Source of the DNA: a virus
Length of the DNA: 42,589 bases
IMG/VR virus record: IMGVR_UViG_3300033233_000073
Span: 1 to 42,589 of that record
Reading direction: 5' to 3' (one strand)
A program made the position numbers and the translations under genes. Below the pieces are notes generated by a model that saw only the letters and a list, made by a program, of their open reading frames with translations, had not been told where the DNA came from and did not search any database. Below are positions 2,090 through 42,589 of this stretch, in pieces. Numbering within the stretch: the first letter of the stretch is position 1; the number at the start of each line of letters is the position of its first letter.

Positions 2090-3802
2090 ATGGCATTCGG
2101 TGCCGGAAACACGATCGGCACGGGCAGTCGTACCGGTTCGGGGACGACCACCACCATCACCACCACGGCGGCCACCGTCGCCGGGGACCTGATCGTCGTC
2201 GCCATCGCGAAGGACAACACCAGCACCACGGACGCCGACAATAACGAGATCACGAATTGCACCGACAGCGCGGGCAATCAATATCTCGAAGGCAAGGAAT
2301 TCACCAATTCATCCGGCTCCGCCGGTGATGGTGCGACGGTCGGCTGCTGGTACTCGAAAACCACGGTTGCTCTAGGCTCCGGCGGCACGATCACGGTCAC
2401 GCATTCGAGCGTCACCGACGTGGCGCTCTCGGGATGGAAATTCACCACCGGCGGCACGGGTAATGGCATCAACTTGACCTCATCCGCCACGCCGGTGGTG
2501 GATGACGCCACGGCGCACGGCACGAGCATCGCGATTTCCGGTTTGACGAGCGCCGAGTACCTGTTCGTCCGCGTAACCGCGGTGGAGGATGAGGCCTTCA
2601 CCGCGCGCACGGCCACCGCCAGTCATTCGTTGATCTCGCAGGCGATTTCCACCACGGCCGGGGCGAATGCCTCCAACATCATGGTGGACGGCGAATTTAT
2701 CATCGCCACCGCCACGGGCGACACCAGCAATCCGACATTCACCACCGCCGCTTCAACGCAAGGCGCGACGGTATTTTTCGCGTTCAAGGAAACGATCGCA
2801 AATGCGTTGAATGCGGCGCCAGGCAGCTTCGCAATGTCTGGCGCGGATGCCGCCAACAACAGAGCGGCGCAGATCAACGCCGCGTCTGGCGCCTTCGCGA
2901 TGGCCGGTAATGCGAGCACGCTGACCGTCGACCGGCCGCTGAACGCGGCAGCCGGCGCTTTCGTCTTGACGGGCCCCGATGTCGCGGACAACAAAGCAGT
3001 TGTCGTCAATTCCGAGCCCGGGACCTTCGCGCTCACCGCCCCGGGCGTGGCGAACAATGTCGGCTGGTTGTTCGATGCTGGAGCTGGCGTCTGCGAGATT
3101 GCGGGCGTCGACGCCAATCTGGTCTACGCCGCTGGCGGCACGGCCTATGACTTGAACGCGGCGCCGGGTACGTTCGCGATCGCCGGCACGGACCTGACGC
3201 TGACGTTCGGTTGGACGGCGAACGCGGCGGCCGGCACATTCACCATGGCAGGAGCGGACGCCGCAAACGCGCGGGCGGCCGCCCTCGACGCCGGCGCCGG
3301 AACCTTCGCCATCACCGGCGCAGATGCCGCAAACGAGAAGGCGGCAGTTCTCAATGCCGCTGCAGGAACTTTCGCGGTCACCGGCGCCGACACGGTGAAC
3401 AGCAAGGCGGTGATCGCCAGTGCCGCCGCCGGCGTTTTTGCGATTGCCGGAGCGGATATTGCCGCCGCGGTTGGCAGGTTACTGAACGCAGGGCCCGGGG
3501 CTTTTGCAATTCTCGGCGTCGACGCCAACCTCGTCTATGACATTGCCGGGGGCGTTGCCTACGATCTGAACGCCCAGACCGGTGCTTTCGCGATGGCCGG
3601 AATGGATCTGGCGCTGCCGGTTGGCAGAGTTCTAGGCGCCGAGCCAGGGGCTTTTGTCGTAGCGGGGATGGATGCAACGCTCGTTTGGCTGATTCCGCTG
3701 ATCGCTCGCGAGCCGATAGAACCATCGGCGCCTGGGCAAATCATTCCTGTGCCGCATACGCTGATCGAGCCGCAAGCAAATGGTTCGATCGGCGTCCACT
3801 GA
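2090..3802 (+). CDS. Virion protein with 13 tandem 22-residue repeats
   Basis: 570 residues. Residues 1 to about 239 form a Thr/Gly/Ser-rich beta-type domain. From about residue 240 to 533 (bases 2807-3689) there are thirteen tandem units of 22 residues with consensus LNAAxGxFAxxGADAANxKA. Units 5 and 11 each carry a 5-6 residue insert ending GGxAYD, so units 5-6 and 11-12 match each other best and the array shows a higher-order duplication. The last 37 or so residues are non-repetitive and proline-rich. No signal peptide or membrane segment is seen. Short Gly-Phe-Ala repeats with fixed period suggest a beta-solenoid or fibrous structure. From its place in the head module it is probably a head fibre or decoration protein; function is inferred from position only. 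Confidence 0.75.
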   Translation: MAFGAGNTIGTGSRTGSGTTTTITTTAATVAGDLIVVAIAKDNTSTTDADNNEITNCTDSAGNQYLEGKEFTNSSGSAGDGATVGCWYSKTTVALGSGGTITVTHSSVTDVALSGWKFTTGGTGNGINLTSSATPVVDDATAHGTSIAISGLTSAEYLFVRVTAVEDEAFTARTATASHSLISQAISTTAGANASNIMVDGEFIIATATGDTSNPTFTTAASTQGATVFFAFKETIANALNAAPGSFAMSGADAANNRAAQINAASGAFAMAGNASTLTVDRPLNAAAGAFVLTGPDVADNKAVVVNSEPGTFALTAPGVANNVGWLFDAGAGVCEIAGVDANLVYAAGGTAYDLNAAPGTFAIAGTDLTLTFGWTANAAAGTFTMAGADAANARAAALDAGAGTFAITGADAANEKAAVLNAAAGTFAVTGADTVNSKAVIASAAAGVFAIAGADIAAAVGRLLNAGPGAFAILGVDANLVYDIAGGVAYDLNAQTGAFAMAGMDLALPVGRVLGAEPGAFVVAGMDATLVWLIPLIAREPIEPSAPGQIIPVPHTLIEPQANGSIGVH

Positions 3803-5081: not shown

Positions 5082-6577
5082 TGGGTTTTCTCGCCAATCT
5101 GCGCGCGCCGCGCCCGCGGCGCGCGGGCGCGGCGTTTCCCGCGGCCGACATCGGGCGCCTCACCTCGAGCTTCGGGCAGGAAAGCGGCGCGATCAACCGG
5201 TGGCTGCGCTACGAGCTGCGCACGCTGCGTGCGCGCTCGCGGCAGCTCGCGCGGGGCGATGCCTACGGGGCGAAGTTCATCCGCGCCTGCATGGATAACA
5301 TCGCGGGCCCGAAGCCGTTCCTGATGCAGGCGAAGGCGAAGTTCAGGGACGGCCGCTTCAACACGGCGGCGAACGCGAAGCTCGAGGCCGCGTGGTATGA
5401 CCACACGCGCCCGGGCGCGTACGAGGTCACGGGCAAGCTCTCGGCGGCGGCCTTTCACCGGCTCAAGATCCGCTGCCTGGCGCGCGATGGCGAGGTGCTG
5501 GTGCGCACGTACCGCGGCGGCGAGTTCGGCGGCGCCGGGAAAAAGCAGATCCTCGACATCGACCGGCTGGACGAGCAGCGCAACGAAAACCTGCGCGGCG
5601 GCGGCGCGATCAAAATGGGCGTGGAGCTCGACCGCTTCAGCAAGCCGGTGGCCTACCACCTGCTCAAGGAGCACCCTGGCGAGATGGGCGAATGGAACCG
5701 CGGCAACGCCCGCGAGCACGAGCGGGTGCCCGCCGACCAGGTCCAGCACCTCTTCATCGCCGACTGGCCCGAGCAGGTGCGCGGCTTTCCATGGATGCAC
5801 GCGGCGATGCTGCGACTGTGGCACCTCGGTGCGTTCGAGGAGGCCGCGGTCATCAACGCCCGGGTGGGCGCCTCGAAGATCGCGACCCTCGAAACACCCG
5901 AGGGCAACGTCCCCGGCACGCTCGTCACCGGCAAGCAAAGCGCCGGCAACCTGCTGCAGGACATCGAGCCGGGGCAATACTGGATGCTTCCCGAGGGCAC
6001 GCGGCTCGGGGAGTTCATGCCGCAGTTTCCCGACCGGAGCGTGGGCCCGTTCATCCAGGCGTGCCTGCGCGGGGCGAGCGCCGCGGTGGGCATGGCGTAC
6101 CACTCGTTCGCGAACGATCCGGGCGAGGTGAATTATTCGACCGCGCGCGTGGCGCTCCTGGATGAGCGCGACATGTGGATGTCGATCCAACATTGGTACA
6201 TCGAGCACGACTGCGAACCCGAGGGCATCGACTGGCTGCGCGGCGCGATTCTGGACGGGGTCTTGCCGCAAGCCTATGAGAGCCTGCGCGGCGCGCTCAT
6301 CTACCAGCCGAAACGCTGGCAGTGGATCGATCCGGAGAAGGAAGTCAACGCCAAAGTGGCGGCGCTGGAGGCGAAGATCACCAGCCGCACGCGCATCGCC
6401 ATCGAGGCCGGTGAAGACATCGAGGACATTTTCGACGAACTGGCGGCCGAAGAGCAGCTCGCGAAGGACAAGGGCCTTTCGCTTGCGGCCGCCCAAGGGA
6501 AGCCCGCCAATGGACAAACACCCGCTGGAACGCCAGACCCTGGATCAGGAGACGCTGTTTCGGGAGCTGAAGAGTAA
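5081..6577 (+). CDS. Portal protein (lambda gpB family)
   Basis: 498 residues, in the normal range for this family (about 480-530). The portal is the dodecameric ring at the head vertex through which DNA passes. Diagnostic stretches are GDAYGAKFIRACMDNIAGP, the Arg-rich DGEVLVRTYRG, ILDIDRLDEQRN, VPADQVQHLF, the strongly conserved DPGEVNYSTARVALLDE and the C-terminal PKRWQWIDPEKEVNA. The C-terminus is helical and acidic, then Gly/Pro-rich. Translation is coupled to the upstream small gene, and its last 68 bases overlap the protease-capsid gene. Confidence 0.94.
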   Translation: MGFLANLRAPRPRRAGAAFPAADIGRLTSSFGQESGAINRWLRYELRTLRARSRQLARGDAYGAKFIRACMDNIAGPKPFLMQAKAKFRDGRFNTAANAKLEAAWYDHTRPGAYEVTGKLSAAAFHRLKIRCLARDGEVLVRTYRGGEFGGAGKKQILDIDRLDEQRNENLRGGGAIKMGVELDRFSKPVAYHLLKEHPGEMGEWNRGNAREHERVPADQVQHLFIADWPEQVRGFPWMHAAMLRLWHLGAFEEAAVINARVGASKIATLETPEGNVPGTLVTGKQSAGNLLQDIEPGQYWMLPEGTRLGEFMPQFPDRSVGPFIQACLRGASAAVGMAYHSFANDPGEVNYSTARVALLDERDMWMSIQHWYIEHDCEPEGIDWLRGAILDGVLPQAYESLRGALIYQPKRWQWIDPEKEVNAKVAALEAKITSRTRIAIEAGEDIEDIFDELAAEEQLAKDKGLSLAAAQGKPANGQTPAGTPDPGSGDAVSGAEE

Positions 6578-8555
6578 GCCGCAGCGCGTCGAGATCGCGC
6601 TCGATCGCGCCGGCGTGGACGTGGAAGCGCGCACCGTCGATCTGGCGTTCGCCTCGGAAGCGCCCTATGAACGCTGGTGGGGCGTCGAGATCCTCGATTG
6701 CACGCCAAAGAGCGTGCGCATGCGCCGGCTCAACAACAAGGCGGCGCTGCTGGTCGATCACACGAGCGCGAAGCACGTCGGGGTCGTGGAGCACGCCCGG
6801 ATCGACGGCGACCGCAAGGGCCGCGCCAAAACGCGCTTCGGGCGCAGCGACTATGCGGGCGAGATCCTCCGGGATATCGCCGACGGGATCCGCACCAAGG
6901 CGAGCGTCGGCTACATGATTCACGAGCTGGTGCTGGAGCGCAAGGAAGAAGATTTGTCAACCTACCGCGTCACCGACTGGGAGCCGTTCGAGATCTCTAT
7001 CGTCTCGGTTCCCGCGGATGACACCGTCGGCGTGGGCCGATCGGCACAGCGGTCATTAGAAGGAAGCGCCAAGATGGACGATAAAAAGCAGGAGCAGGTT
7101 GCAGATCCGAATGCCACGGATGCGCTGGTGAGCGGTTTTCGCGAAAGCGACGCCGCCTCGCGCGCCGACGAGCGCAAGCTCGTCGCGAAGAGGAACGAAC
7201 AGATCATCGCGCTCGGCGAGCAGTGGCCGGAGTACGGCGGGCCGGACCTGGCGAAGAAAGCCCTGGCCGATCCGACCATGACGGTCGAGGCCTTCCGCGC
7301 CTCGATGCTCAATCTGCTGGGCGAGAAGCACCGCGCGGCGATCGACACGGGGCGGCTGGAATCCGATCGCCTGAATCCCGCGCATCAGCAGCCCGGGGGC
7401 AGCGCGCCCTATGGCATGTCGCCGCGCGAGATGATCGCGGCCACCGGGCTGAAGGCCTTCAAGGGCATCGGCGCGCTGATGGGCAAGACCGACCAGGAAG
7501 TCGCCTACCGCGCCGGCATGTGGGCGATGGCGGCGATCCACGGCAACCCGCGCGCCATCCGCTGGTGCCAGGACGCGGGCGTGCAGTTGATGCAGGGATC
7601 CCGCGAGCAGCTCGGTTTCAGCGAGCGCACGATGACCGAGGGCGTCTTCACCTCCGCCGGCTGGATGGTTCCGGTGGAAATGGAAGCCGCGATCATCGCC
7701 AACCGCGAGGAATACGGCGTGGCGCGCCGGATCTGCAACGTCATCCCGATGAACTCGGCTTCGACGAGCTTCCCGCGGATCACCTCGGACGTGACGGCGT
7801 ACTTCGTCGGCGAAGGCAATTCGGGGACGCAATCGGATCCAGGCGGCGACCAGGTGACGCTGACGCTGAAGGACCTGATGGCGTGGACCAACATCGGCAA
7901 GTCGACGGCGATGGATACCGTCATTGCGCTCGCCGAAATGGTTGCGCGCGAGCAGGCCAGGGGCTTCGCGGTGAAAGAAGACGCCTGCCTCATCGTCGGG
8001 GACGGCACCTCGACCTACGGCGGCATGCAGGGCATCAAGACGCTGCTCGACAACGCGTCGTATGCCGGTGGCAAGGTGGCGGCGGCGACGCCGCATAACC
8101 TCCTCACCGAGATCGACGTGGCCGACGTCACTTCCCTGATCGGCATCCTGCCGGTCTACTCGCGAGCGGGCGCACGCTGGCTCGCATCGGGCGTTGCGGA
8201 CGCGCTCATTTTCGGGAAGCTCAAGCTGAACGCGGGCGGCAACACCGTGCAGACGGTGCAGGGCCGCATTGTCGAGGGCGATTACGCAGGGTTCCCGGTG
8301 ACGGTCGCGCATCACATGCCGGCAGGCGCCGCGACGGACTACAACGCGGCCACGATCATCATCCTGGGGAACTTCAACCTCGGCGTCGCGTTCGGCAGCG
8401 GCAGCGGCATGATGATGACGGTCGATCCGTACACGCTCGCGCACCAGAACCTCACGCGGATCATCACCACCGAGCGCATCGACATCAACGCCCACGGCGT
8501 CAACAAGTCGACCACCGTGGCCGGCCCGATCGTCGGTCTGCACGGCACGACCTGA
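6510..8555 (+). CDS. Fused prohead protease and HK97-type major capsid protein
   Basis: 681 residues from the ATG at 6510, chosen because AAGGGA lies about 9 bases upstream and the reading before it is only a shadow of the portal gene. Residues about 25-178 are a U35-type prohead protease: VDHTSAKHVGVV with candidate His83, TKASVGYM with Ser132, and VSVPADDTVGVG at the end. A charged linker leads to the capsid domain (about 375-681): GWMVPVEMEAAII, FPRITSDVTAYFVGEGNS, VTLTLKDLMAWTNIGKS and GDGTSTYGGMQGI are typical HK97-fold capsid motifs. In fused forms the protease acts as scaffold and cuts itself off during maturation; the cleavage site is not visible with certainty. Confidence 0.92.
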   Translation: MDKHPLERQTLDQETLFRELKSKPQRVEIALDRAGVDVEARTVDLAFASEAPYERWWGVEILDCTPKSVRMRRLNNKAALLVDHTSAKHVGVVEHARIDGDRKGRAKTRFGRSDYAGEILRDIADGIRTKASVGYMIHELVLERKEEDLSTYRVTDWEPFEISIVSVPADDTVGVGRSAQRSLEGSAKMDDKKQEQVADPNATDALVSGFRESDAASRADERKLVAKRNEQIIALGEQWPEYGGPDLAKKALADPTMTVEAFRASMLNLLGEKHRAAIDTGRLESDRLNPAHQQPGGSAPYGMSPREMIAATGLKAFKGIGALMGKTDQEVAYRAGMWAMAAIHGNPRAIRWCQDAGVQLMQGSREQLGFSERTMTEGVFTSAGWMVPVEMEAAIIANREEYGVARRICNVIPMNSASTSFPRITSDVTAYFVGEGNSGTQSDPGGDQVTLTLKDLMAWTNIGKSTAMDTVIALAEMVAREQARGFAVKEDACLIVGDGTSTYGGMQGIKTLLDNASYAGGKVAAATPHNLLTEIDVADVTSLIGILPVYSRAGARWLASGVADALIFGKLKLNAGGNTVQTVQGRIVEGDYAGFPVTVAHHMPAGAATDYNAATIIILGNFNLGVAFGSGSGMMMTVDPYTLAHQNLTRIITTERIDINAHGVNKSTTVAGPIVGLHGTT

Positions 8556-8627: not shown

Positions 8628-9059
8628 ATGTATCCTCCTCTGAAGCAAAAGTTGCTCCTCACGAGCGCGCCCACCAGCGCGCAATCGCATACCGCGGTGA
8701 TCGATACGCTCGGCTACGACCGGGTGGCGATCGGCGTGGCCTTCGGCACGGTCGCGGAAACCACGCCCGAGATTACGCTGAAGCTCGGCGAAGGCGACAC
8801 CACGAGCTCATTCACCGACATTGCCGAGGCGGTTGCCGGTGGCGTCGGCGGATTCACGAAGCCCACGCCTCCGACGAATACCAGCGTCGCCGACACGATG
8901 CAATTCGACGTCGACACGCGCCACCGCAAGCGCTATCTGCTGCTGACCGTCACCCCGTTCACGACGAAGCAGGTCACGAGCTGGGCGACGCTCGGCCGGC
9001 CAGGCCAAGGGCCGCTCGCCGCCACCAGCGAAGGCCTGAGCGCGCGCGTCGGGTTCTAG
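8628..9059 (+). CDS. Putative virion protein after the capsid gene
   Basis: 143 residues with GGGAAC about 8 bases before the ATG. The sequence is beta-rich and lacks catalytic motifs: YDRVAIGVAFGTVAETTPEI, QFDVDTRHRKRYLLLTVTPF. Its place directly behind the major capsid gene is where lambda has gpFI and other phages have decoration or head-fibre proteins, so a capsid-surface role is likely. The gene ends 24 bases before a strong terminator, making it the last gene of the head transcript unless readthrough or antitermination occurs. Confidence 0.65.
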   Translation: MYPPLKQKLLLTSAPTSAQSHTAVIDTLGYDRVAIGVAFGTVAETTPEITLKLGEGDTTSSFTDIAEAVAGGVGGFTKPTPPTNTSVADTMQFDVDTRHRKRYLLLTVTPFTTKQVTSWATLGRPGQGPLAATSEGLSARVGF

Positions 9060-9083: not shown

Positions 9084-9110
9084 ATGGGCGCTCACGGGCG
9101 CCCATTTTTT
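9084..9110 (+). terminator. Rho-independent terminator
   Basis: ATGGGCGC (9084-9091) and GCGCCCAT form an 8-bp stem with a short TCACGG loop, followed by a run of six T. It sits between the head gene and the sugar cassette and should stop most rightward transcripts unless an antiterminator acts. Confidence 0.85.
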
Positions 9111-9126
9111 GAACCGCATCGATGGG

Positions 9127-10413
9127 ATGCCAATGCCAAGTGCACTGATTACAGGTATTACCGGACAGGACGGTTCCTACCTCGCGGAGTTGCTGCTCGC
9201 CAAGGGCTACGCCGTGCACGGCCTGGTGCGTCGCGTATCGCAGCCCAACTTTGGCAATCTCGCCGCCGTGCTCGGCCGCGTGTCGCTTCACACGGGCGAC
9301 ATGCTCGACGGCCCGAGCCTCTTCAGGACGATCCAGGCGGTACAGCCCGAGGAGATCTACAACCTGGCCGCGATGAGCCAGGTGCGCGACTCCTACGATC
9401 ATCCGGAAGTGACGCAGGAGATCAACGCCGGCGGTTTGTTGCGCATCATGGAGGCGGTCCGGGCGCTTGGCCTCGGTTGCAAGATCTACCAGGCCTGCTC
9501 GAGCGAGATGTTCGGCAAGGTACTCGAGACGCCGCAGAACGAGCGCACGCCGTTCTATCCACGCTCGCCCTACGGCAGCTCGAAGGTCAGCGCGTTCAAT
9601 CACGCGAGGATCTGGCGCGAGGCCTATGGCATGCGGGTGTACTGCGGGATTCTGTTCAACCACGAGAGCCCGCGCCGCGGCGAGGCGTTTCTCAGCCGCA
9701 AGGTCTGCAAGGCGGCGGCCGAGATCGCGACCGGCCGTGGAGAAAAGCTGAAGCTCGGAAACCTGGACGCGAAGCGCGACTGGGGCTACGCAAAGGAGTA
9801 CGTCGAGTGGATCCACGCGATCGTGCAGCACCCGACGCCGGAGGATTTCGTCATCGCCACGGGCGAGACGCACTCGGTCCGGGAGTTTGTCGAGCGCGCC
9901 TTCGCGCACGCCGGCATCGGCGACTGGGAGGCCCACGTCGAATACGACAAGGGACTCACCCGGCCCGCGGAAGTCGATCTGCTGTGCGGCGATGCAGAGA
10001 AAAGCCGCCGGCTGATCGGTTTCGAGCCGAAGGTCAAGTTCGACGCGTTGGTCCGGATCATGGTCGAGGCTGAACTGGCGAAGCTGAAGACCCGCCACAG
10101 CGATGCCAGGCGAGATCTTGTCGGCTTTCCGGAGGCGAAGGTCCTCGAGGCGAAGATGGACGCAGTGATCGGGCAGCATTATCACCTGCGCAAGGAAGAA
10201 AAATTCATTCTGAGCAGCGGCGAGTGCACGCTGCACCTGGGCGTGCCCCCGGAACCGATCCAGATGGCGATCGGGCGCATCTACAGCATCAGGCCTGGCG
10301 AATATCACGAGTTCCACATCAAGCGCGGCAGCGTGCTCGTCGGGCTCAACTCGCATGCCTACGATCCGAGCGACGATTACAGGCTGGACGCGGTGGAGCG
10401 GGTCGCCGCGTGA
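9127..10413 (+). CDS. GDP-mannose 4,6-dehydratase fused to a C-terminal cupin domain
   Basis: 428 residues from ATG 9127 (9133 is an alternative, and a TTG at 9109 lies inside the terminator). Residues 1-320 are an extended short-chain dehydrogenase: GITGQDG nucleotide loop (10-16), SSEMFG (125-130), Tyr149-x3-Lys153 catalytic pair, and the GMD hallmark NHESPRRGE with a following RK. GMD turns GDP-mannose into GDP-4-keto-6-deoxymannose, precursor of fucose, rhamnose, colitose and perosamine. Residues about 345-415 fit a cupin: HYH at 351-353, Glu357, Gly365, then RPGEYHEF (389-396). RmlC-like cupins isomerise or epimerise keto-sugars, so the fused domain may process the same product. Not normally a phage structural-module gene, so probably acquired; coupled by GTGA overlap to the next gene. 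Confidence 0.9.
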   Translation: MPMPSALITGITGQDGSYLAELLLAKGYAVHGLVRRVSQPNFGNLAAVLGRVSLHTGDMLDGPSLFRTIQAVQPEEIYNLAAMSQVRDSYDHPEVTQEINAGGLLRIMEAVRALGLGCKIYQACSSEMFGKVLETPQNERTPFYPRSPYGSSKVSAFNHARIWREAYGMRVYCGILFNHESPRRGEAFLSRKVCKAAAEIATGRGEKLKLGNLDAKRDWGYAKEYVEWIHAIVQHPTPEDFVIATGETHSVREFVERAFAHAGIGDWEAHVEYDKGLTRPAEVDLLCGDAEKSRRLIGFEPKVKFDALVRIMVEAELAKLKTRHSDARRDLVGFPEAKVLEAKMDAVIGQHYHLRKEEKFILSSGECTLHLGVPPEPIQMAIGRIYSIRPGEYHEFHIKRGSVLVGLNSHAYDPSDDYRLDAVERVAA

Positions 10414-11561
10414 AGTACAACCTCGGCGCCGGGCAGCAACCCGTCGAGGGCTACGACAACAGCTTCGACGCGGCGAACGGCAAAGCGGCCCATCCGCTCG
10501 CGCTGCCGGATGGCTCGGCGGACGAGATCCGGGCCTCGCACCTCTTCGAGCACTTCAGCCACCGGGCTGCGCTGGATGTGCTCAAGGACTGGGTGCGCGT
10601 GCTGAAACCCGGCGGGCTGCTCAAGCTCGCCGTGCCGGATCTCGACTACATCGCCCGAGGCTACCTCGAGGGGCGCCAGGAGCCGTGGCAGAGCTATCTC
10701 TGCGGGGCGCACAGCGACCAGAACGACGTGCACCTGGCGCAGTACGACGAGCCGAGTCTGGGTGCGGTGATGCGCGGCGCTGGGCTGGTCGGCGTGCATC
10801 GGTGGAAGAGCGACGGCAAAGACTGCTCGAGCCTTCCGGTGTCGCTCAACCTGGCGGCGTGGAAGCCGCCGGCCGTCTGGCCGAAGGTGGTCGCGGTAAT
10901 GTCGGTACCGCGGCTCGGCTTCATGGACAACTTTTTCTCGGCGATCGAGGCGGTGTCCCGATTGCGGATCCCGATCCGCAAAACGCAAGGCGCATTCTGG
11001 GCGCAATGCCTCACGCGCTCGATCGAGGAGGGGCTGAAGGAAGGCGCGGAATGGATCCTGACGCTGGACTACGACAGCGTCTACGGCGCGGACACGGTGC
11101 TGGACTTGCTCGCCACCGCAATCGCTCATCCGCAGGCCGATGCCCTGGTGGCGCTCGAGATGTCGCGCATCAGCGGCGTACCCCTGATGACGGTGCCCGG
11201 GCCCGATGGCGCCGCGATCTCCCAGATCGACCGCGCAGCGATGGACGAGACGCTGCTGCCGATCCTCACCGGGCACTTCGGCTGCACCTTGCTGAGGGCC
11301 TCGGCGCTGGCGAGGCTCGCAAAGCCGTGGTTTCTCGGCGTGCCGGCGAACGATGGCGGCTGGGGGCCGGGGCGAGTCGACGACGATATCCATTTCTGGC
11401 GGCAATGGAAGAAGGCGGGGAACAGCATGTTTTGCGCGCCCCGCTGCGTGATCGGTCACGCCGAGCTCTACATCATCTGGCCGGACCGCAATCTGGAGAA
11501 CACCCTGCAGCATGCGAGTGAATACTGGCGCGACGGATCGCCGATCGGAGTCTGGAGATGA
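10410..11561 (+). CDS. Fusion of SAM methyltransferase and GT-A glycosyltransferase
   Basis: 383 residues; GTG start overlaps the stop of the dehydratase (GTGA). Residues 1 to about 145 match class I methyltransferases: YNLGAGQQPVEGYDN (SAM motif I), ASHLFEHF, and the post-motif WVRVLKPGGLLKLAVPDLD. Residues about 158-383 look like a GT-A glycosyltransferase: VVAVMSVPRLGFMDN, then TLDYDSVYGADTV with an Asp220-x-Asp222 metal/sugar-nucleotide motif, and a late GWGPGRVDDDIHFW acidic segment. Such a protein could transfer a sugar and methylate sugar or acceptor. Together with the preceding gene it makes a compact sugar synthesis-and-transfer unit. Acceptor unknown: virion proteins, DNA and host surface are all possible. 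ATGA overlap with the next gene ties it to the structural operon. Confidence 0.8.
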   Translation: MKYNLGAGQQPVEGYDNSFDAANGKAAHPLALPDGSADEIRASHLFEHFSHRAALDVLKDWVRVLKPGGLLKLAVPDLDYIARGYLEGRQEPWQSYLCGAHSDQNDVHLAQYDEPSLGAVMRGAGLVGVHRWKSDGKDCSSLPVSLNLAAWKPPAVWPKVVAVMSVPRLGFMDNFFSAIEAVSRLRIPIRKTQGAFWAQCLTRSIEEGLKEGAEWILTLDYDSVYGADTVLDLLATAIAHPQADALVALEMSRISGVPLMTVPGPDGAAISQIDRAAMDETLLPILTGHFGCTLLRASALARLAKPWFLGVPANDGGWGPGRVDDDIHFWRQWKKAGNSMFCAPRCVIGHAELYIIWPDRNLENTLQHASEYWRDGSPIGVWR

Positions 11562-11815
11562 CCGAGGAACGCAGGAGACCGCTCAAGCAGTTTGTCGTGC
11601 TACGGGCTCATGGTCCTTATCGCAAGGGCGACAAGATCCAGCCCACGGGGATGTACCGCGATGTCCTGCTGAAGCGCGGCCTGATCGAGGAAATCAAGGA
11701 CGAGCCTGTCGATGCACCTGCCCGCATGAAGCAGCCTGCAATCGATCGCATGATCGCGCTGCCGGATCCCCCGGCGAGGTTGCCGCTCGTCACGCGCGGC
11801 CGGCGGGCTCATTAG
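11558..11815 (+). CDS. Small phage neck-region protein
   Basis: 85 residues, ATGA overlap with the glycosyltransferase fusion and 3 bases before the next ATG. The N-terminal half KQFVVLRAHGPYRKGDKIQPTG followed by LLKRGLIEEI resembles the small beta-barrel proteins found between capsid and connector genes in many siphophages (pattern: strand, Y-x-KGD, then LLxxGxxEEI). The C-terminal half is Pro/Arg-rich and probably disordered. Function unassigned; position suggests head completion. Confidence 0.55.
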   Translation: MTEERRRPLKQFVVLRAHGPYRKGDKIQPTGMYRDVLLKRGLIEEIKDEPVDAPARMKQPAIDRMIALPDPPARLPLVTRGRRAH

Positions 11816-11818
11816 GCT

Positions 11819-12100
11819 ATGCCCTTCACCGAAGACCTCTCGGTGTTCTTCAACACCGAGGACTTCGCCACGGCGGCGATGGCAAGCTGGGGCGGCACGG
11901 TGAACGTGATCTTCGATGCCGAATACCTCGATCAGCTCGGCATGGCGGGCACGAACCCGGGCGCGCTCGCGATGGCGTCCGAAGTGCCGGCAAGCGCGGT
12001 GAACGGCACCATCACCATCAATGGCACCGCCTACACGATTCGCGACCGCCAGCCGCAGGACGACGGCGCGGTGGTGCTGCTGCAACTGGAGCGCGCCTGA
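11819..12100 (+). CDS. Head-tail joining protein (gpFII-like)
   Basis: 93 residues. The sequence MPFTEDLSVFFNTEDFATAA, VNVIFDAEYLDQLG, NGTITINGTAYTIRDRQPQDDGAVVLLQLE is typical of the small beta-barrel head-tail joining family (lambda gpFII type): an N-terminal helix that loads into the connector, then a barrel ending in a ligand-like DG-x-VLLQLE strand. It completes filled heads so that tails can dock. The stop shares bases with the next start (TGATG). Confidence 0.8.
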   Translation: MPFTEDLSVFFNTEDFATAAMASWGGTVNVIFDAEYLDQLGMAGTNPGALAMASEVPASAVNGTITINGTAYTIRDRQPQDDGAVVLLQLERA

Positions 12101-25557: not shown

Positions 25558-26523
25558 TTAGGCGTGTTTGCGGAGCGTCTTTGTGACCCGGGCCAGACCC
25601 GCTATTTTGCCGACTGCTTCCTCGAGGTGCGCGGTCGCCAGGTGCGCATAGCGGCTGCTTACGCCCAGGTTGGAATGGCCGAGCAGATCGCGGACCGCGG
25701 CGAGCGGCGCCCCGGCCTGCACCAGCCAGCTCGCGTAGGTATGGCGCAGGTCGTGGAAGCGGATGTGCGGCATCTTCGCCTTGGCGCGGGCGCGGTCGAA
25801 GCCGTTGCGCAGCTCGTGCACCGTGAGACCTAGGGGCAGAGAGATATCGAGCGCCTCGGGCGGCAGTGGCACCAGGCGCGGGCGGCCGCTTTTGGACTCC
25901 TGGACATAGAGCGCATTGCCGCGCCGGCTGGATTCGTCGAGCGCGAGGAGTTCGCTGCGCCGGAGGCCGGAGGTGGCGGCGAGCAGGATCGCGTTGCGCA
26001 CGCGCCGATCGCGCGCAGCCGCCACAAGCCGCTGCACTTCGGCCGGGCTGAGATAGACGTGGCGGGCACGCTCGCCTGGCAGCAGTTGCACGCGGCCGGC
26101 AACCGGGTTCTCCAGCCAGCCCCATTGGCGGTGGGCGAGGTTCACAACGCGGCGCAGGATCGCCAGGCGCCGGTTGATAGTGGCCGGCTTGAGGCCGTCG
26201 GCGAGCCAGGCTCTGGTGGCGGATTCTGCAGCGTTGGCCACATCCTCGAGCGCGCGGCCGGCGATGTGCGGCAGGAGGGAACGCGCCTTATTCTGCAGAT
26301 CGTGCTCGGTGCGCAGCGTGCGCGCCTCGCCCGTCAGCCAGCGGTGGAGCGCTTCCTCGAGTGAGTAGCGCGCCTGGCGGCCAACTCGACGATCGGCGAT
26401 GCGGCCGCGCGTGCGGCGCTCGAAGTCGAGCGCGTCCGCCCGGGACCTAAAAGTTCTTTCAACCCGATTCCCCAAGTACTGAACACGAGCCTGCCATCCT
26501 TTTCCATGCTTGCGGACTGGCAT
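25558..26523 (-). CDS. int: Tyrosine recombinase integrase
   Basis: 321 residues. N-terminal arm-binding part starts RKHGKGWQARVQYLGNR. Core SAM-like domain about 54-140. Catalytic residues all present: Arg188 (ATSGLRRSELLAL), Lys211 (ESKSGRPR), His257-x2-Arg260 (RFHDLRHTYASW), His283 (LLGHSNLG) and Tyr292 (SSRYAHLA). It integrates the phage at the tRNA-Lys site next to its own 3' end. The start at 26523 has a weak ribosome site and lies 170 bases inside the upstream excisionase frame, so coupling or an internal start is possible. Confidence 0.94.
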   Translation of the reverse strand: MPVRKHGKGWQARVQYLGNRVERTFRSRADALDFERRTRGRIADRRVGRQARYSLEEALHRWLTGEARTLRTEHDLQNKARSLLPHIAGRALEDVANAAESATRAWLADGLKPATINRRLAILRRVVNLAHRQWGWLENPVAGRVQLLPGERARHVYLSPAEVQRLVAAARDRRVRNAILLAATSGLRRSELLALDESSRRGNALYVQESKSGRPRLVPLPPEALDISLPLGLTVHELRNGFDRARAKAKMPHIRFHDLRHTYASWLVQAGAPLAAVRDLLGHSNLGVSSRYAHLATAHLEEAVGKIAGLARVTKTLRKHA

Positions 26524-29261: not shown

Positions 29262-31004
29262 TTATGCGGCGACGATGGAAACTTGCTCTTCGAACTGCGC
29301 TCTGAGAATCGCAGCGGCGAGCGGTGGGCACACGGAGTTGCCGCAGCAGCGTACCTGCGCCGACTTCGTGAACGGCTTGCCCTCGGCGTCCGTCTCGATG
29401 CGATAGGTGTCCGGGAATCCCTGCGCCCTGAAAAGCTCGCGCGGTTGCAGCATCCGCATGCCGATATCGGCGATGGCGTATTCCTCGCCGTTGACCGTCA
29501 CCAGACCAAGGCGGTCCGTGGTATCGAGCGTGCTTACTGGAACATCAAGCGAGTTGCCGATGCTGCAGCCGTTGTACCGGCTCAGGAATGCGCGGACTTC
29601 GCCATAATGAATACCGCCGCGCCCGCCGCCGGCCTGAATGGTGTGTAGCGGCAGGTCAAGCTGCTGGCCGTGCTGAGACGTCCCCTTGAACTTCGTCAGG
29701 TGCGAGGCTACGACGGCGTGATGGTTGCCGCTCGTGACCGTCGGGATCGGCACTTCCATCTGCCGGCCGGAGTGTCCCGTGGTGTTGGTCATCAAGTTAG
29801 CGGCGACCAGCGCGTTGTGGTCGCAGGCAGTGATTGTGCTTACCGGTTCCCGCATGCCCGAGCCAGGGCGTTGCCCGCGATCGCCGTAGTGCTTCGCCAG
29901 AAAGGCCGATACCAGCGCATGCTTTTGCCCATCGACCACGGTACCGAGCGGTTTCTCCAGTCCAGGCACCCGCGGTTGCTGGCCGGGACGCTCGCCGTAG
30001 CCGGTCTGAATCAGGGTCGGCGAGACCAAGCCGAAGCGTGGGTCGCCGCATTGCGTGGGTAGCGGATCGTGCAAGTCGCCAGCGCGTGTCTCGTTGCCCT
30101 TGATCCCGTAGTACGGCGAAACAAACGGCGTCACCAGCGAGAACTCGCCGCCCTTCGTTTCGGCCGCGATCGTACGCAGTGGCTCGTCGATCGGGTGCAC
30201 CGTGTCCCGCCCGTTGTAATGGGCGATCGGGACGATGAACGGCTGCGCTGCCTCGATGACGTACTTGCGGATGCCGCGCGCGATCCGGCGCAGCGTGTTC
30301 TCGGCTAGGGGCCTGATGCGCTCGAAAATGGACGGGCATGGTAGCGACCATTCGATGCACTCGGCAGCAGTGCGCCACGCATGCGCCCGGTGCTTCCCGT
30401 GCGTCGGCGCCGGCCAGGCGATGGCGTTTCCATCGCAGCGCGCGATCAAGAAGAGCCGCTTGCGAGTCGTCGGCGCGCCATAGTCAGCGGCAACGAGCGC
30501 CTGAACGGCCACGTCGTAGCCGCAGCGTTCGAGCTGGCGCACGAAGCGCCGGAACGTCAGCCCTTTGCGCAGTGAGCAGGGCCGGCCGTCCTCAAGCAGC
30601 GGCCCCCAGTGCTGAAACTCCTCGACGTTCTCCAGCACGATGACGCGCGGGCTGACCGCCTTCGCCCACTTCACCGCGACCCATGCCAAGCCGCGAATCT
30701 TTTTCTCGACCGGGCGCCCGCCCTTGGCCTTCGAGAAGTGCTTGCAGTCCGGCGAGAGCCACATCAAGCCCACGCGCGAGCCACCGACAGCCTTGACCGG
30801 ATCGACCGCCCACACGTCCTCGCAGTAATGCAGGGAGGACGGGTGGTTGACGCGATGCATACGCAACGCTTCGGGGTCGTGGTTGATGGCGATATCCGGA
30901 CTGCGTCCGAGCGCCATCTCTATGCCGAGCGAGGCCCCGCCACCGCCGGCGAACGAATCGACGATCAGCTCATCGTGATGCAGCCGCAGAACCGGCGCCC
31001 TCAT
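29262..31004 (-). CDS. Cytosine-C5 DNA methyltransferase with repeat-containing target region
   Basis: 580 residues, longer than typical (350-450). Motif I VDSFAGGGGASLGIE, motif IV SPDCKHFSKAKGG with catalytic Cys87, motif VI VLENVEEF, motif VIII AADYGAPTTRKRLF, motif IX/X GFPDTYRI and QVRCCGNSV. Between VIII and IX, residues 256-503 are seven tandem units of 32-38 residues built around FLxxYYG...G...PLxTI...HALV, occupying the target-recognition region. Probably protects phage DNA from host restriction or marks it. The start overlaps the upstream frame's stop (ATGA). Confidence 0.92.
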   Translation of the reverse strand: MRAPVLRLHHDELIVDSFAGGGGASLGIEMALGRSPDIAINHDPEALRMHRVNHPSSLHYCEDVWAVDPVKAVGGSRVGLMWLSPDCKHFSKAKGGRPVEKKIRGLAWVAVKWAKAVSPRVIVLENVEEFQHWGPLLEDGRPCSLRKGLTFRRFVRQLERCGYDVAVQALVAADYGAPTTRKRLFLIARCDGNAIAWPAPTHGKHRAHAWRTAAECIEWSLPCPSIFERIRPLAENTLRRIARGIRKYVIEAAQPFIVPIAHYNGRDTVHPIDEPLRTIAAETKGGEFSLVTPFVSPYYGIKGNETRAGDLHDPLPTQCGDPRFGLVSPTLIQTGYGERPGQQPRVPGLEKPLGTVVDGQKHALVSAFLAKHYGDRGQRPGSGMREPVSTITACDHNALVAANLMTNTTGHSGRQMEVPIPTVTSGNHHAVVASHLTKFKGTSQHGQQLDLPLHTIQAGGGRGGIHYGEVRAFLSRYNGCSIGNSLDVPVSTLDTTDRLGLVTVNGEEYAIADIGMRMLQPRELFRAQGFPDTYRIETDAEGKPFTKSAQVRCCGNSVCPPLAAAILRAQFEEQVSIVAA

Positions 31005-34984: not shown

Positions 34985-37564
34985 ATGAACGTCGCTGAGC
35001 CCGCGTTGGAGTATCGACAATTCCTGAAGGCGAAGGTCAAACTGGACCATGCCTGCGGCTTCGATGTCGATCCGAGGGAGCTGAATCCGGCGCTAAAAGA
35101 TCACACACGCGCGATGGTGCGCTGGGCGCTGCTTGGTGGGCGTAGGGCCCTATTTGCTGCCTTTGGGCTGCACAAGACTTGCGCGCAGCTGGAGATCATG
35201 CGGCTGATAGGCGCGCGCCGCCCAGGAATTAGGTTGATCACGCTCCCGCTCGGCGTGCGGCAGGAGTTCACCAGGGATTCCGCGTTTTTCTTTACAGGCG
35301 AGCACGTCATACTACTGAAGTTCATCCGGCGCGCCGGCGAAATCGAGGACGACCGGACGATCTATCTCACGAACTACGAATCGGTGCGCGAGGGAATCCT
35401 CGATATCGCGGCAATCAAACCAGTCGCGGTGAGCCTTGACGAGGCCTCGATCCTGCGTGGTTTCGGCGGTACGAAGACTTTCCGTGAAGCTATGGCCGTG
35501 TTCGCTGGCGACGATCGCCGCGACCAAGCGCAGCGCGTATCGAGCGATGGCGTTCCCTTCCGGTTCGTTGCCACGGCAACACCGAGCCCGAACGAGTACA
35601 TCGAGATCCTCGCCTACGCCGCGTTCCTCGGAATCATGGATGTCGGCCAGGCGAAGACGAGATTCTTCAAGCGCAACAGCGAGAAGGCCGACGCGCTGAC
35701 GCTGCATCCGCACAAAGAACGGGAGTTCTGGCTGTGGGTCGCATCGTGGGCGCTGTTCGTCCAGAAACCATCCGATCTCGGGTTTAGCGACGAAGGCTAC
35801 GCACTGCCGGCGCTCGATGTGCGCTGGCACGAACTACCGTCCGACCACAGCACCGCAGGCATAGAAAAAGACGGGCAGGGCCGGATGTTCCGCTCAGCCG
35901 CGATCGGCGTGCAGGACGCGGCGCGGGAGAAGCGCGACAGCCTGCAGGATCGGATAGCGAAGCTGCTTGAGTTGCGCGCCGAGGACCCGGCGGCGCACCG
36001 GCTGCTTTGGCACGATTTGGAAGCAGAGCGGGGCGCAATCCAGACCGCATGCCCGTACGCCGCGGCCGTGTACGGCTCGCAGGACCTTGACCTGCGCGAG
36101 AAACTGATCACCAGTTTCTCAGAGGGCGAAATCGCGGAGCTTGCCGGGAAGCCCTCGATGCTCGGCCAGGGCTGTAATTTCCAGCGTCACTGCCACCAGG
36201 CGATCTACCTCGGCATCGGCTTCAAGTTCAATGATTGGATTCAAAGCGTGCACCGCTTGCAGCGGTTCGGCCAGGCGCAACCGGTGCGCATCGACCTGAT
36301 CTACACCGAGGCGGAACGCGAGGTACGGCGCGAGCTAGAGCGCAAGTGGCGCCAGCACGTCGAGCAGGTCGAAATCATGAGCGCGATCATTCTGGAGTAC
36401 GGCCTGTCGGTTGCCTCGATGGCGCACGCGCTCACCAGATCCATCGGCGTTGAGCGCGCCGAGGCCTCGGGGAGGTCCTGGACGTTGCTCAACAGTGATT
36501 GTGTGGAAGAAACGCAGAGCATGCCAGCGGACAGCGTCGGGCTGATCGTTACCTCGATCCCGTTCTCCCACCAGTACGAGTACTCGCCGAGCTACAACGA
36601 CTTCGGGCACACCGACGACAACGCGCACTTCTGGCGGCAGATGGACTTTCTCACACCGCAGTTGTTGCGAGTACTCCAGCCCGGGCGCGTGCTCGCGGTA
36701 CACGTCAAGGATCGGATCACCCCTGGCGGGATAAATGGCTTCGGCTTTCAGACCGTCTCCAGAATCTCGGACGCCTGCGCTGATCACTTCGAGCGACACG
36801 GGTTCGCGTTCCTTGGCCGCAAGACGATCGTTACCGATGTTGTGCGGGAGAACAATCAGACCTATCGCCTTGGCTGGTCGGAGCAGTGCAAGGACGGTTC
36901 TCGAATGGGTGCCGGGTTGCCCGAATACGTGATGCTCTTCAGGAGGCCGCCAACCGATCGCTCGAACGGCTACGCCGACCTGCCTGTGGCGAAGTCGAAG
37001 GACAAATACACGCGCCCGCGCTGGCAATATGACGCGCACGGCTACATGCGATCGAGCGGCGATCGGATATTGCAACCCGAGGACCTGACCGGGTTGGCGC
37101 AGGATGCGATCTACAAAAGATTCCGGAAGTACTCGCTCGAAAACATCTATGACTTCGCGCGTGATGTAATTCTCGCCGAGCACGTTGATCGCTCTGGGTG
37201 GTTGCCTTCGACCTTCATGCTGATGCCGCCGGCGTCCTGGCATCCGGATGTCTGGACGGATGTAGCGCGCATGCGCACGCTGAACAGCAGCCAGGCATCG
37301 AAGGGCAAGGAAATGCACCTTTGCCCGTTGCAGTTCGACATCGTCGATCGGATCATTACGCAGTTCTCAATGGACGGCGAGACCGTCTTTGATCCATTCG
37401 CCGGCCTAGGCACCGTGCCTTTTTGTGCCGTGAAGCTCGGAAGGCGAGGCCTCGGCGTTGAACTGAACGCGGCCTACTACCGGGACGCGATTTGGTACTG
37501 CCAGCAGGCCGAAGCGCAGCGCGCGACGCCATCGCTTTTCGACCTGCAGGAGCTTGCCGCATGA
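34985..37564 (+). CDS. SNF2-type helicase fused to a beta-class DNA methyltransferase
   Basis: 859 residues. Helicase half: FAAFGLHKTCAQLE (degenerate Walker A, GLHKT at 61-65), AVSLDEASIL (motif II, 152-155), VATATPSPNEY (motif III), SMLGQGCNFQ and SVHRLQRFGQAQPVRIDLIY (motifs V/VI, 423-430). Methyltransferase half (about 500-859): LLNSDCVEETQSMPADSVGLIVTSIPF with SIPF in place of DPPY, YEYSPSYNDFGH, HVKDRI, then FDPFAGLGTVPFCAVKLGR (SAM site) and GVELNAAYY. Order IV-target region-I is beta class. Fusions of helicase and methyltransferase, such as phage P1 DarB, protect DNA against restriction; this one is smaller and lies where replication genes are expected. Substrate base (N4-C or N6-A) unknown. 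Confidence 0.88.
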   Translation: MNVAEPALEYRQFLKAKVKLDHACGFDVDPRELNPALKDHTRAMVRWALLGGRRALFAAFGLHKTCAQLEIMRLIGARRPGIRLITLPLGVRQEFTRDSAFFFTGEHVILLKFIRRAGEIEDDRTIYLTNYESVREGILDIAAIKPVAVSLDEASILRGFGGTKTFREAMAVFAGDDRRDQAQRVSSDGVPFRFVATATPSPNEYIEILAYAAFLGIMDVGQAKTRFFKRNSEKADALTLHPHKEREFWLWVASWALFVQKPSDLGFSDEGYALPALDVRWHELPSDHSTAGIEKDGQGRMFRSAAIGVQDAAREKRDSLQDRIAKLLELRAEDPAAHRLLWHDLEAERGAIQTACPYAAAVYGSQDLDLREKLITSFSEGEIAELAGKPSMLGQGCNFQRHCHQAIYLGIGFKFNDWIQSVHRLQRFGQAQPVRIDLIYTEAEREVRRELERKWRQHVEQVEIMSAIILEYGLSVASMAHALTRSIGVERAEASGRSWTLLNSDCVEETQSMPADSVGLIVTSIPFSHQYEYSPSYNDFGHTDDNAHFWRQMDFLTPQLLRVLQPGRVLAVHVKDRITPGGINGFGFQTVSRISDACADHFERHGFAFLGRKTIVTDVVRENNQTYRLGWSEQCKDGSRMGAGLPEYVMLFRRPPTDRSNGYADLPVAKSKDKYTRPRWQYDAHGYMRSSGDRILQPEDLTGLAQDAIYKRFRKYSLENIYDFARDVILAEHVDRSGWLPSTFMLMPPASWHPDVWTDVARMRTLNSSQASKGKEMHLCPLQFDIVDRIITQFSMDGETVFDPFAGLGTVPFCAVKLGRRGLGVELNAAYYRDAIWYCQQAEAQRATPSLFDLQELAA

Positions 37565-41635: not shown

Positions 41636-42589
41636 CATCGCGGCGCGCGCGCTCGCGCCGGAGCCCGAGCTTATGGTGTCCGTGTGGGCGGATCACCACC
41701 GGCGCCTGTCGTCGAAGGCCTCGAGCGAGCCCGGCAAGTGGGAGACCTCGCGCACGCCGTATATGCGCGAGATCATGGACGCGCTGACGCTGTCGCACCC
41801 ATGCACCGACGGCGACTTCATGAAGGGCACGCAAATCGGCGGGTCGGAGGGACTCTACAACGCGATCGGCTACATCGCCGACCAGGCGCCATGCCCGGCG
41901 ATGCTGGTGATGCCGACCACCGACACGGCGAAGCGCATCTCCAAGCAACGCCTGCAGCCGATGATCGACGAGACGCCGGCGCTCGCGGCGAAGTTCAGCG
42001 AGGCGCGCTCGCGCAACTCGTCGAACACCGTGTTGATGAAGGATTTCCCGGGCGGCGTGCTGGTGATCACCGGCGCGAATTCCGGCCCTGGCCTGCGCTC
42101 GATGCCGGTGCGGGTGCTGCTGCAGGACGAGATCGACGCGTATCCGGACGACGTCGACGGCGAGGGCGATCCGTGCGCGGTGGCGGCGAAGCGCACCGAC
42201 ACCTATTCGCGCGCGAAGCGGTTCTGCTGCTCGACGCCGAAGATTAAGGGTAAGTCGCGCATCGACCGGCGCTATCGCGCGGGCACGCAGGCGCGCTATT
42301 TCGTGCCCTGCCCGAAGTGCCGGCACGAGCAGCCGCTGCGGTGGGCGCAGATGCGCTGGGCGCTCGAGCGCCGGCGCGAGTTCATCTGCCCGGCCTGCGG
42401 CGGGATCTCGGAGATCGACCGCGGAGCCATCGGTACGCAGGCCTGCCAGCACTGCCGCGCGCAGGGCGAGCTCGGCGAGCCCACGACGCGCGAGCTCGAG
42501 ACCGACGAGCTCGACCGCGTCTGGTACGAGTGCGAGGCCTGCGCTTGCGAGATCGACGAGCACCACAAGAGCTGGATGCTCGAGCATGG
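41565..42589 (+). CDS. terL: Terminase large subunit (lambda GpA family), N-terminal part; continues at base 1
   Basis: Runs off the right end; the other part is at 1-1395. ATPase motifs: FMKGTQIGGSEGLYNAIGY (Walker A-like, residues about 85-103), TTDTAKRISKQRLQPMIDE, VLLQDEIDAYPDDVDG (Walker B with catalytic Asp-Glu, about 184-190) and RAKRFCCSTPKIKG (coupling motif). Zinc-ribbon cysteines follow (CPKCRHEQ, CPACGG, CQHC, CEACACEI). Start at ATG 41565 inside the end of terS. Confidence 0.94.
   Translation, partial: MNSRIDFQATLPQGLRSARRLCRSIAARALAPEPELMVSVWADHHRRLSSKASSEPGKWETSRTPYMREIMDALTLSHPCTDGDFMKGTQIGGSEGLYNAIGYIADQAPCPAMLVMPTTDTAKRISKQRLQPMIDETPALAAKFSEARSRNSSNTVLMKDFPGGVLVITGANSGPGLRSMPVRVLLQDEIDAYPDDVDGEGDPCAVAAKRTDTYSRAKRFCCSTPKIKGKSRIDRRYRAGTQARYFVPCPKCRHEQPLRWAQMRWALERRREFICPACGGISEIDRGAIGTQACQHCRAQGELGEPTTRELETDELDRVWYECEACACEIDEHHKSWMLEH
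42450..42589 (+). repeat. Terminal direct repeat (circular closure overlap)
   Basis: Bases 42464-42589 are identical to 15-140 (126 bases). Extending outward, 42450 (C) versus 1 (T) and 42463 (A) versus 14 (T) differ. It makes the sequence a circle of about 42,449 bp. The length is what k-mer assembly of a circular molecule leaves; it is not evidence of a physical terminal repeat. Confidence 0.9.

Follow-up and report, generated by a model that had tools for sequence, protein, structure and literature searches.

Virion glycosylation has been documented in few phage isolates, most of them actinobacterial. Cluster O mycobacteriophages carry an O-methyltransferase gene and glycosyltransferase genes between the portal and protease genes that were proposed as capsid modifiers (PMC4351075), Corndog gp38 is named as required for capsid glycosylation, and Che8 gp108–gp110 are described as phage-encoded glycosyltransferases for virion proteins (both PMC12363180). 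Among other viruses, protein A197 of the archaeal Sulfolobus turreted icosahedral virus (STIV), which has a glycosylated coat, is described as essential and as possibly glycosylating the coat protein (PMC10551542), and the chlorovirus PBCV-1 encodes a GDP-mannose 4,6-dehydratase (GMD), glycosyltransferases and most of its capsid-glycosylation machinery (PMC7019647). Here we describe a module in the virus record IMGVR_UViG_3300033233_000073, which was analyzed over its whole 42,589 bases (the window). Two adjacent genes, gene 1 (9127–10413), encoding a GMD-like dehydratase with a C-terminal cupin, and gene 2 (10410–11561), encoding a methyltransferase joined to a GT-A glycosyltransferase, lie on the plus strand behind the major capsid gene and a small gene, g8628 (8628–9059). 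From these genes and their relatives we consider it likely that the module glycosylates the virion and that the g8628 protein is the favored acceptor.

Head-module glycosylation cassettes are already known from Corndog-type mycobacteriophages, and the window module is a new, widespread variant. Its likeness to cluster O (Corndog, Firecracker) lies in having a methyltransferase and glycosyltransferases within the head module, as in the Firecracker map; cluster O differs in having four separate genes, neither a GMD nor a cupin gene in the mapped portion and another capsid type. Similarity to gene 2 was not seen for Firecracker gp36 (hhalign probability 0.4%) or for Che8 gp109 and gp110 (0.1% each), in comparisons of weak power, with single sequences on one side. 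Che8 gp108–gp110 are also encoded at the far right genome end, unlike gene 2. STIV A197 shares the GT-A fold and is the top structural match of gene 2, but it has no methyltransferase domain, belongs to an archaeal virus with another capsid, and its donor and acceptor are likewise putative. PBCV-1 is a eukaryotic virus in which GMD is paired with GMER, whereas the window phage has the fused cupin and no second epimerase-family enzyme. The preliminary description of this DNA had called the arrangement undescribed. That does not hold for the location, since PMC4351075 places such genes in the head module of cluster O phages. The open-access literature (subscription papers being mostly missing from it) yielded no account of the methyltransferase–glycosyltransferase family or of its tie to a gene of the cement type, nor of the exchangeable slot described below or the GMD–cupin fusion.

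The core of the module is gene 2 plus g8628, and synteny shows the order capsid gene, g8628, gene 2. A scan with a five-row alignment found at least 588 relatives of gene 2 in viral contigs; 80 of these matches were kept and, together with loci found earlier and with each contig counted once, gave 82 loci (L numbers), of which 81 were reached through gene 2 or its alignment and one (L009) through gene 1 only. A g8628-like gene lies upstream of gene 2 in 76 of the 82, and the capsid gene as well in 72. Four of the six loci without g8628 (L041, L076, L079 and L083) start within 125 bases of a contig end, the g8628 of L077 is hidden inside an over-long open reading frame call, and L053 is the sole true miss. 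When loci were clustered at 60% identity, the link was kept in 38 of 40 clusters, the exceptions being those with L053 and L077. The same alignment scan found only seven gene 2 loci in the genome collection, all on contigs of metagenome-assembled genomes; six of the seven have g8628 and five the capsid gene too, and gene 2 is accordingly essentially viral. In the window the trio accompanies a lambda-type portal and a fused protease; in L005 it stands alongside a PF04860 portal and a Clp protease. Since portal, protease and terminase vary among the carriers, the trio is more than one phage lineage copied whole. Chance is excluded as an explanation of the arrangement, because near full-length homologues of both gene 1 and gene 2 recur at this position in further phages.

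A scan with the capsid alignment, blind to gene 2, gave 80 loci; five had been found before and were left out, and 48 of the 75 new ones have at least 3 kilobases downstream. All 48 have g8628 adjoining the major capsid gene, and 31 have gene 2. By eye, most of 14 inspected loci without gene 2 continue into connector-like genes, and L111 carries another methyltransferase. In cultured phages the capsid matched 99 records, all at less than 60% identity. The maps of two of them, FoX3 and KA2-1, have no glycosyltransferase product between the capsid and neck genes; the Hc1 annotation of KA2-1 mentions a VOG named glycosyltransferase.

The N-terminal part of gene 2 (approximately residues 1–155, 10410–10874) is predicted to be a short methyltransferase of the class I S-adenosylmethionine type. 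It passes the Pfam cut-off for Methyltransf_11 (26.5 bits against 21.2), with the match limited to the C-terminal half of the model (positions 49–93 of 95). In an alignment of 59 rows, from which the first-list loci L039 (which has a stop), L044, L064 and L068 were excluded, H44, E47 and H48 are present in all rows, G6 in 58, G8 in 57 and D20 in 47. The remainder (approximately residues 156–383, 10875–11558) is weak in Pfam (E 0.029; Glyco_tranf_2_3 at 14.8 bits does not reach its cut-off of 27), and Glyco_trans_2_3 matches 15 of the 59 relatives at E ≤ 0.01. The AlphaFold model built from this alignment is a compact two-domain fold with a predicted local distance difference test score (pLDDT) of 94.1. 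The best VIA match of the second domain (model residues 158–353) is STIV A197 (2c0n; Z 18.2, root-mean-square deviation 2.3 Å over 164 residues, 11% identity), followed by human LH3 (17.4), mimivirus R699 (16.9), B4GALNT1 (15.9) and COLGALT1 (15.1). TarP, RmlT and the fucosyltransferase WrtF rank slightly below COLGALT1, these GT-A enzymes having Z scores of 14–18. The modeled domain is thus clearly a GT-A fold with a DXD motif, and its catalytic residues, D220 and D222 (D220-Y-D222), D326 and H350, are invariant in all 59 rows. Among 50,697 deposited phage records, gene 2 had a single weak match, on the methyltransferase side. Two variants of the gene were also seen: L022 has two gene 2-type copies (7091–8449 and 9532–10710) flanking a connector-like gene, and L009 (6183–7955) has an extra FkbM methyltransferase fused N-terminally to gene 2 (67 bits, cut-off 22.7).

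The 143-residue product of g8628 matches phrog_5707, as do 36 of 40 relatives in an alignment whose rows were picked from the 79 loci with a match. Its AlphaFold model, of moderate confidence (pLDDT 77.7, predicted template modeling score 0.72), is almost entirely strand and forms a beta-sandwich; we regard the product as a putative capsid cement or decoration protein. Foldseek and VIA searches did not find a convincing single fold relative, the match to the Carin1 capsid chain 8cjz_A being weak (Foldseek E 5.8e-3), and tblastn with the window and L056 proteins (E 0.01) gave no matches in cultured phages. Threonine makes up 17% of the window protein. Over the loci with gene 2 its content is 13.4% in g8628 and 7.1% in the capsid protein, about a twofold difference, and g8628 is richer in threonine in the 122 loci with gene 2 than in the 14 without (13.4% against 11.8%, Mann-Whitney p 0.004). 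We regard this enrichment alongside gene 2 as a hint only, because the difference is small and the loci are related to one another, some lying on contigs counted more than once.

Pairwise protein distances were compared over 105 loci, reduced to 80 at 85% identity. Correlation with the g8628 distances was strongest for the C-terminal half of the glycosyltransferase (r 0.69). The N-terminal half of that domain reached 0.52, the methyltransferase domain 0.49 and the halves of the capsid protein 0.47 and 0.48. As a yardstick, the two halves of the glycosyltransferase correlated with each other at 0.58 and those of the capsid protein at 0.66. The partial correlation between g8628 and the C-terminal half, controlling for capsid, methyltransferase and N-terminal half, was 0.50, as compared with 0.12 for the N-terminal half and 0.08 for the methyltransferase, and the partial values were reached in none of 499 permutations. 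Spearman coefficients at three dereplication levels were 0.51–0.59 for the C-terminal half, and no other part exceeded 0.37. Because the DNA order is capsid, g8628, slot, methyltransferase, N-terminal half and C-terminal half, linkage alone predicts the reverse ranking. In GT-A enzymes the acceptor site is usually in the C-terminal half. The co-divergence of that half with g8628 points to g8628 as a candidate acceptor, although distance correlations are no proof.

Gene 1 starts with ATG, its frame also being open from a TTG at 9109, and overlaps gene 2, which starts with GTG, by 4 bases. Residues 7–312 of its dehydratase domain (residues 1–320, 9127–10086) match Pfam GDP_Man_Dehyd (PF16363) far above the cut-off (E 2.5e-113, 379.4 bits against 27), and the best solved-structure match is human GMD (6gpj, E 7.7e-95). 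We call it GMD-like because it missed the cut-off of the NCBIfam gmd equivalog TIGR01472 (380 against 415 bits). The cofactor motif GITGQDG (GxxGxxG), S125-S126-E127 and Y149/K153 are invariant in six of six fused relatives; we take the S/T-x-E and YxxxK positions to be the catalytic residues of GMD, the position of Ser125 being Thr in the human enzyme. The cupin domain (10099–10413) carries the motif H351-x-H353-x4-E358 ... H394, with all four residues invariant in nine of nine rows. Within the full-length protein these last ~95 residues matched Pfam cupin models only below cut-off. A profile of the nine rows matched solved cupin structures (best E 1.7e-7), among them quercetinase and PMI-like and other cupins; QdtA aligned over most of the domain (4zu7, profile positions 14–93, E 7.3e-6). 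Pfam FdtA, a sugar 3,4-ketoisomerase family, gave 14.8 bits with the window cupin, short of its cut-off of 23, and matched eight of the nine rows at E ≤ 0.5. Lyx_isomer (D-lyxose isomerase, cut-off 20.8) gave 22.3 bits with the cupin alone and 16.6 with the whole protein, over 49 of 222 model positions. A clear assignment of the cupin to any Pfam family was not obtained. On sequence, gene 1 is a domain fusion, as L008, L009 and L010 carry the dehydratase and cupin as separate neighboring genes. These findings, from Pfam, profiles and structure, confirmed the two overlapping genes and their four domains as first described.

Taking the RmlB-FdtA-FdtB pathway as an analogy, we suggest that GDP-4-keto-6-deoxymannose is the substrate of the cupin of gene 1, which may work as a ketoisomerase or an epimerase. 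In the whole window record gene 1 is the only PF01370 epimerase/dehydratase, and PF01041 aminotransferases are lacking, so gene 1 would end at a keto-sugar unless a host or unrecognized enzyme completes it. The records of L040, L042 and L051 have one PF01370 match each and that of L010 has two. Phage records, those of cyanophages included, often contain GMD-like genes: gene 1 matched 192 of the 50,697, but all at less than 60% identity, and 190 of the 192 cover less than 80% of it, the other two being both records of one archaeal virus. Elsewhere, a GT11-family gene lies 5' of a fused gene 1 homologue in L006, and L208 (6892–9321) has a DegT aminotransferase, a dehydratase and a cupin in a row and then, by eye, glycosyltransferase-like genes, possibly a phage-encoded GDP-amino-deoxysugar pathway. 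Such neighbors of the dehydratase–cupin pair are consistent with sugar-nucleotide work.

Within the module, gene 2 is constant and gene 1 optional. Besides the window, four of the 76 loci (L005, L040, L042 and L051) have gene 1 in the interval that separates g8628 from gene 2, and the closest relatives, L002 and L015, are without it. The preliminary description, which mistook the optional gene for the core, had envisaged a self-contained sugar system and a search for the same two-gene block at the capsid boundary. The first idea is contradicted by the rarity of gene 1 in the slot, its absence from L002 and L015 and the missing PF01370 and PF01041 partners; of the block, the gene 2 portion recurs widely beside g8628 and the gene 1 portion seldom. 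A scan with the cupin gave 48 loci, 46 of them new. Ten of the 46 pair gene 1-type genes with a full gene 2 (L175, L176, L178, L182–L186, L210 and L216), three of these being contigs already counted; L213, L215 and L217 have only a short gene 2-like match, and in L009, one of the two re-found loci, gene 1-type genes and gene 2 are both present and spaced apart.

Fewer than 150 bases separate g8628 from gene 2 in 47 of the 76 loci, and wider gaps hold gene 1, a sulfotransferase, methyltransferase genes, a cytidylyltransferase-like gene or others. Sulfotransferases above cut-off were found in L048, L057, L068 and L069. By eye, the slot genes of L009, L017, L018, L062, L073, L081, L084 and L087 are FkbM-like; among the slot genes tested against Pfam, that of L058 alone was an FkbM methyltransferase above cut-off, those of L062 and L081 fell below it and those of L009, L018 and L073 had no match. 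The cytidylyltransferase-like gene occurs in L029, where a kinase half was noted by eye, and 3' of the sulfotransferase in L048. Other contents were another copy of gene 2 together with a connector (L022), tail-like genes (L054) and small unknown genes (L046, L047, L050 and L066). The slot gene of L052 is glycosyltransferase-like by eye and had no database match. In L048, L057 and L069 the sulfotransferase is followed by a nucleotidyltransferase-like gene with, by eye, a MazG-like end, and the capsid slot of these three loci could possibly provide a sulfated coat sugar.

Based on these data, we propose that the GT-A domain of gene 2 would act late in infection, transferring a sugar from a nucleotide sugar onto g8628, and that the fused methyltransferase would O-methylate, and so cap, the transferred sugar. 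In the window phage, gene 1 would alter the donor, its dehydratase turning GDP-mannose into GDP-4-keto-6-deoxymannose and its cupin, 3,4-ketoisomerase- or epimerase-like, isomerizing or epimerizing the keto-sugar, which a host enzyme may complete. The slot between g8628 and gene 2 would take exchangeable donor-making or tailoring enzymes, making the coat sugar swappable. Any benefit might come from a particle that interacts differently with receptors, hosts or the environment.

The virion target, put forward in the preliminary description, is supported by the tie of gene 2 to the capsid gene and g8628, its scarcity outside viral contigs and the co-divergence of the glycosyltransferase with g8628. 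Several observations weigh against our interpretation. Likeness to a GT-A fold carries no information on the acceptor, and the glycosyltransferase family of gene 2 is without sequence similarity to the proven virion glycosyltransferases compared. Phrog_5707 has no assigned function, Foldseek and VIA gave g8628 weak matches of several kinds (GOLD domains, a plant virus coat, Eph receptor domains), and the comparison with the jelly-roll cement protein of phage BPP-1 (3j4u_H) reached only Z 7.1, within the range that the tool calls common. Every distance correlation was positive and co-divergence of this kind can stem from shared history; in subsamples of 80 columns the mean for the C-terminal half (0.70) led the N-terminal half by less (0.63; capsid 0.57, methyltransferase 0.53). 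Gene 2 is absent from 17 of the 48 capsid loci, and so is dispensable for this capsid type, and 37 of the 48 cupin-scan loci have no accompanying full gene 2. The absence of gene 2 from those 17 capsid loci, the varying slot contents and the occurrence of the cupin and dehydratase pair in other phage contexts would suit cargo, metabolic or DNA-related, inserted at a permissive gap in the late operon and unconnected to the particle. We consider this very improbable, since the slot enzymes that can be named are sugar-tailoring ones and gene 2 was not relocated elsewhere among the loci examined.

Glycosylation of a different virion protein, either the major capsid protein or a tail or fiber protein such as the Thr/Ala-rich repeat protein encoded at 2090–3802, has a known precedent in the mycobacteriophage capsids and tail tubes described in PMC12363180, and the capsid gene shares the block in most loci. 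Capsid distances, however, correlate with those of the glycosyltransferase at only 0.41–0.45, below the value for g8628, and the capsid protein has about half its threonine, which leaves another acceptor unlikely in our view. Host pathways for surface polysaccharides often include GMD, cupin isomerases and enzymes of the GT-A type. Together with the fold likeness to TarP, RmlT and WrtF and the presence of an integrase, this fits genes that modify the host surface (O-antigen, capsule or teichoic acid) in late infection or lysogeny, excluding other phages or freeing progeny. The earlier suggestion of host O-antigen modification keeps some plausibility, but it accords less well with place and linkage: the genes lie in the head operon, away from the integrase (25558–26523) and from any membrane-protein cassette, no membrane helices are predicted in the gene 2 model, and gene 2 hardly occurs in the genome collection, remains beside g8628 and co-diverges with it. 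We therefore rate it as improbable, somewhat more so than another virion acceptor. DNA modification, also named earlier, has nothing in its favor, partners not having been looked for beyond two distant DNA methyltransferase genes. A defense function was considered and rejected, as gene 1, gene 2 and g8628 had no PADLOC matches. Glycosylation of the virion, with g8628 as the favored acceptor, is the explanation that we prefer.

The window phage is temperate and siphovirus-like, with recognizable terminase, lambda-type portal, protease–capsid fusion, tape measure, central fiber and integrase. The ends of the record (1–140 and 42451–42589) overlap by 139 bases at 99% identity inside the terminase large subunit gene. 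The genome is therefore probably complete and circular (or permuted), although the record is classed as linear. The fusion of protease and major capsid protein (6504–8555, plus strand) matches phrog_617 and phrog_4523 in its N-terminal part and phrog_10 at residues 335–661, the capsid part beginning at about 7494; 6504 is a selected in-frame ATG, and the longest open reading frame starts at 6162. In the window it is followed by g8628, gene 1, gene 2, a small gene (11558–11815, plus strand) and the gene for head closure or head–tail attachment (11819–12100, plus strand). The small gene, located 3' of gene 2 in some relatives, has homologues in 24 loci by a local hidden Markov model and no Pfam or PHROG matches. 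The last gene matches PF05354 (42 bits, cut-off 26) and phrog_82 (head closure Hc1), which bears out the placement originally described, between capsid genes and a head–tail joining gene. Between terminase and portal, 2090–3802 encodes a Thr/Ala/Gly-rich protein of 570 residues with, by eye, repeated blocks and no PHROG matches, possibly a fiber or a second glycan acceptor. Elsewhere, 34985–37564 encodes a single 859-residue protein with helicase and DNA methyltransferase domains (phrog_16, phrog_67), and 29262–31004 on the minus strand a 580-residue DNA methyltransferase (phrog_116, E 8e-98).

More broadly, and with somewhat less than even confidence, we speculate that a large group of uncultured tailed phages carries a fusion of a sugar methyltransferase with a dedicated cement-protein glycosyltransferase, the latter having co-evolved with its acceptor, and that the slot swaps donor-making or sulfating enzymes, so that the coat sugar would switch in the manner of bacterial serotypes. 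The size of the gene 2 family in viral contigs, set beside its single weak match in deposited phage records, suggests that glycosylated capsids are commonplace in uncultured phages and, as gene 2 recurs at the same capsid place in many of them, it is perhaps a common phage means of changing the coat. In g8628 there is a specific, testable acceptor candidate. Sugar-nucleotide genes found among head genes, which are often called auxiliary metabolic genes, may serve the particle rather than the metabolism of the host.

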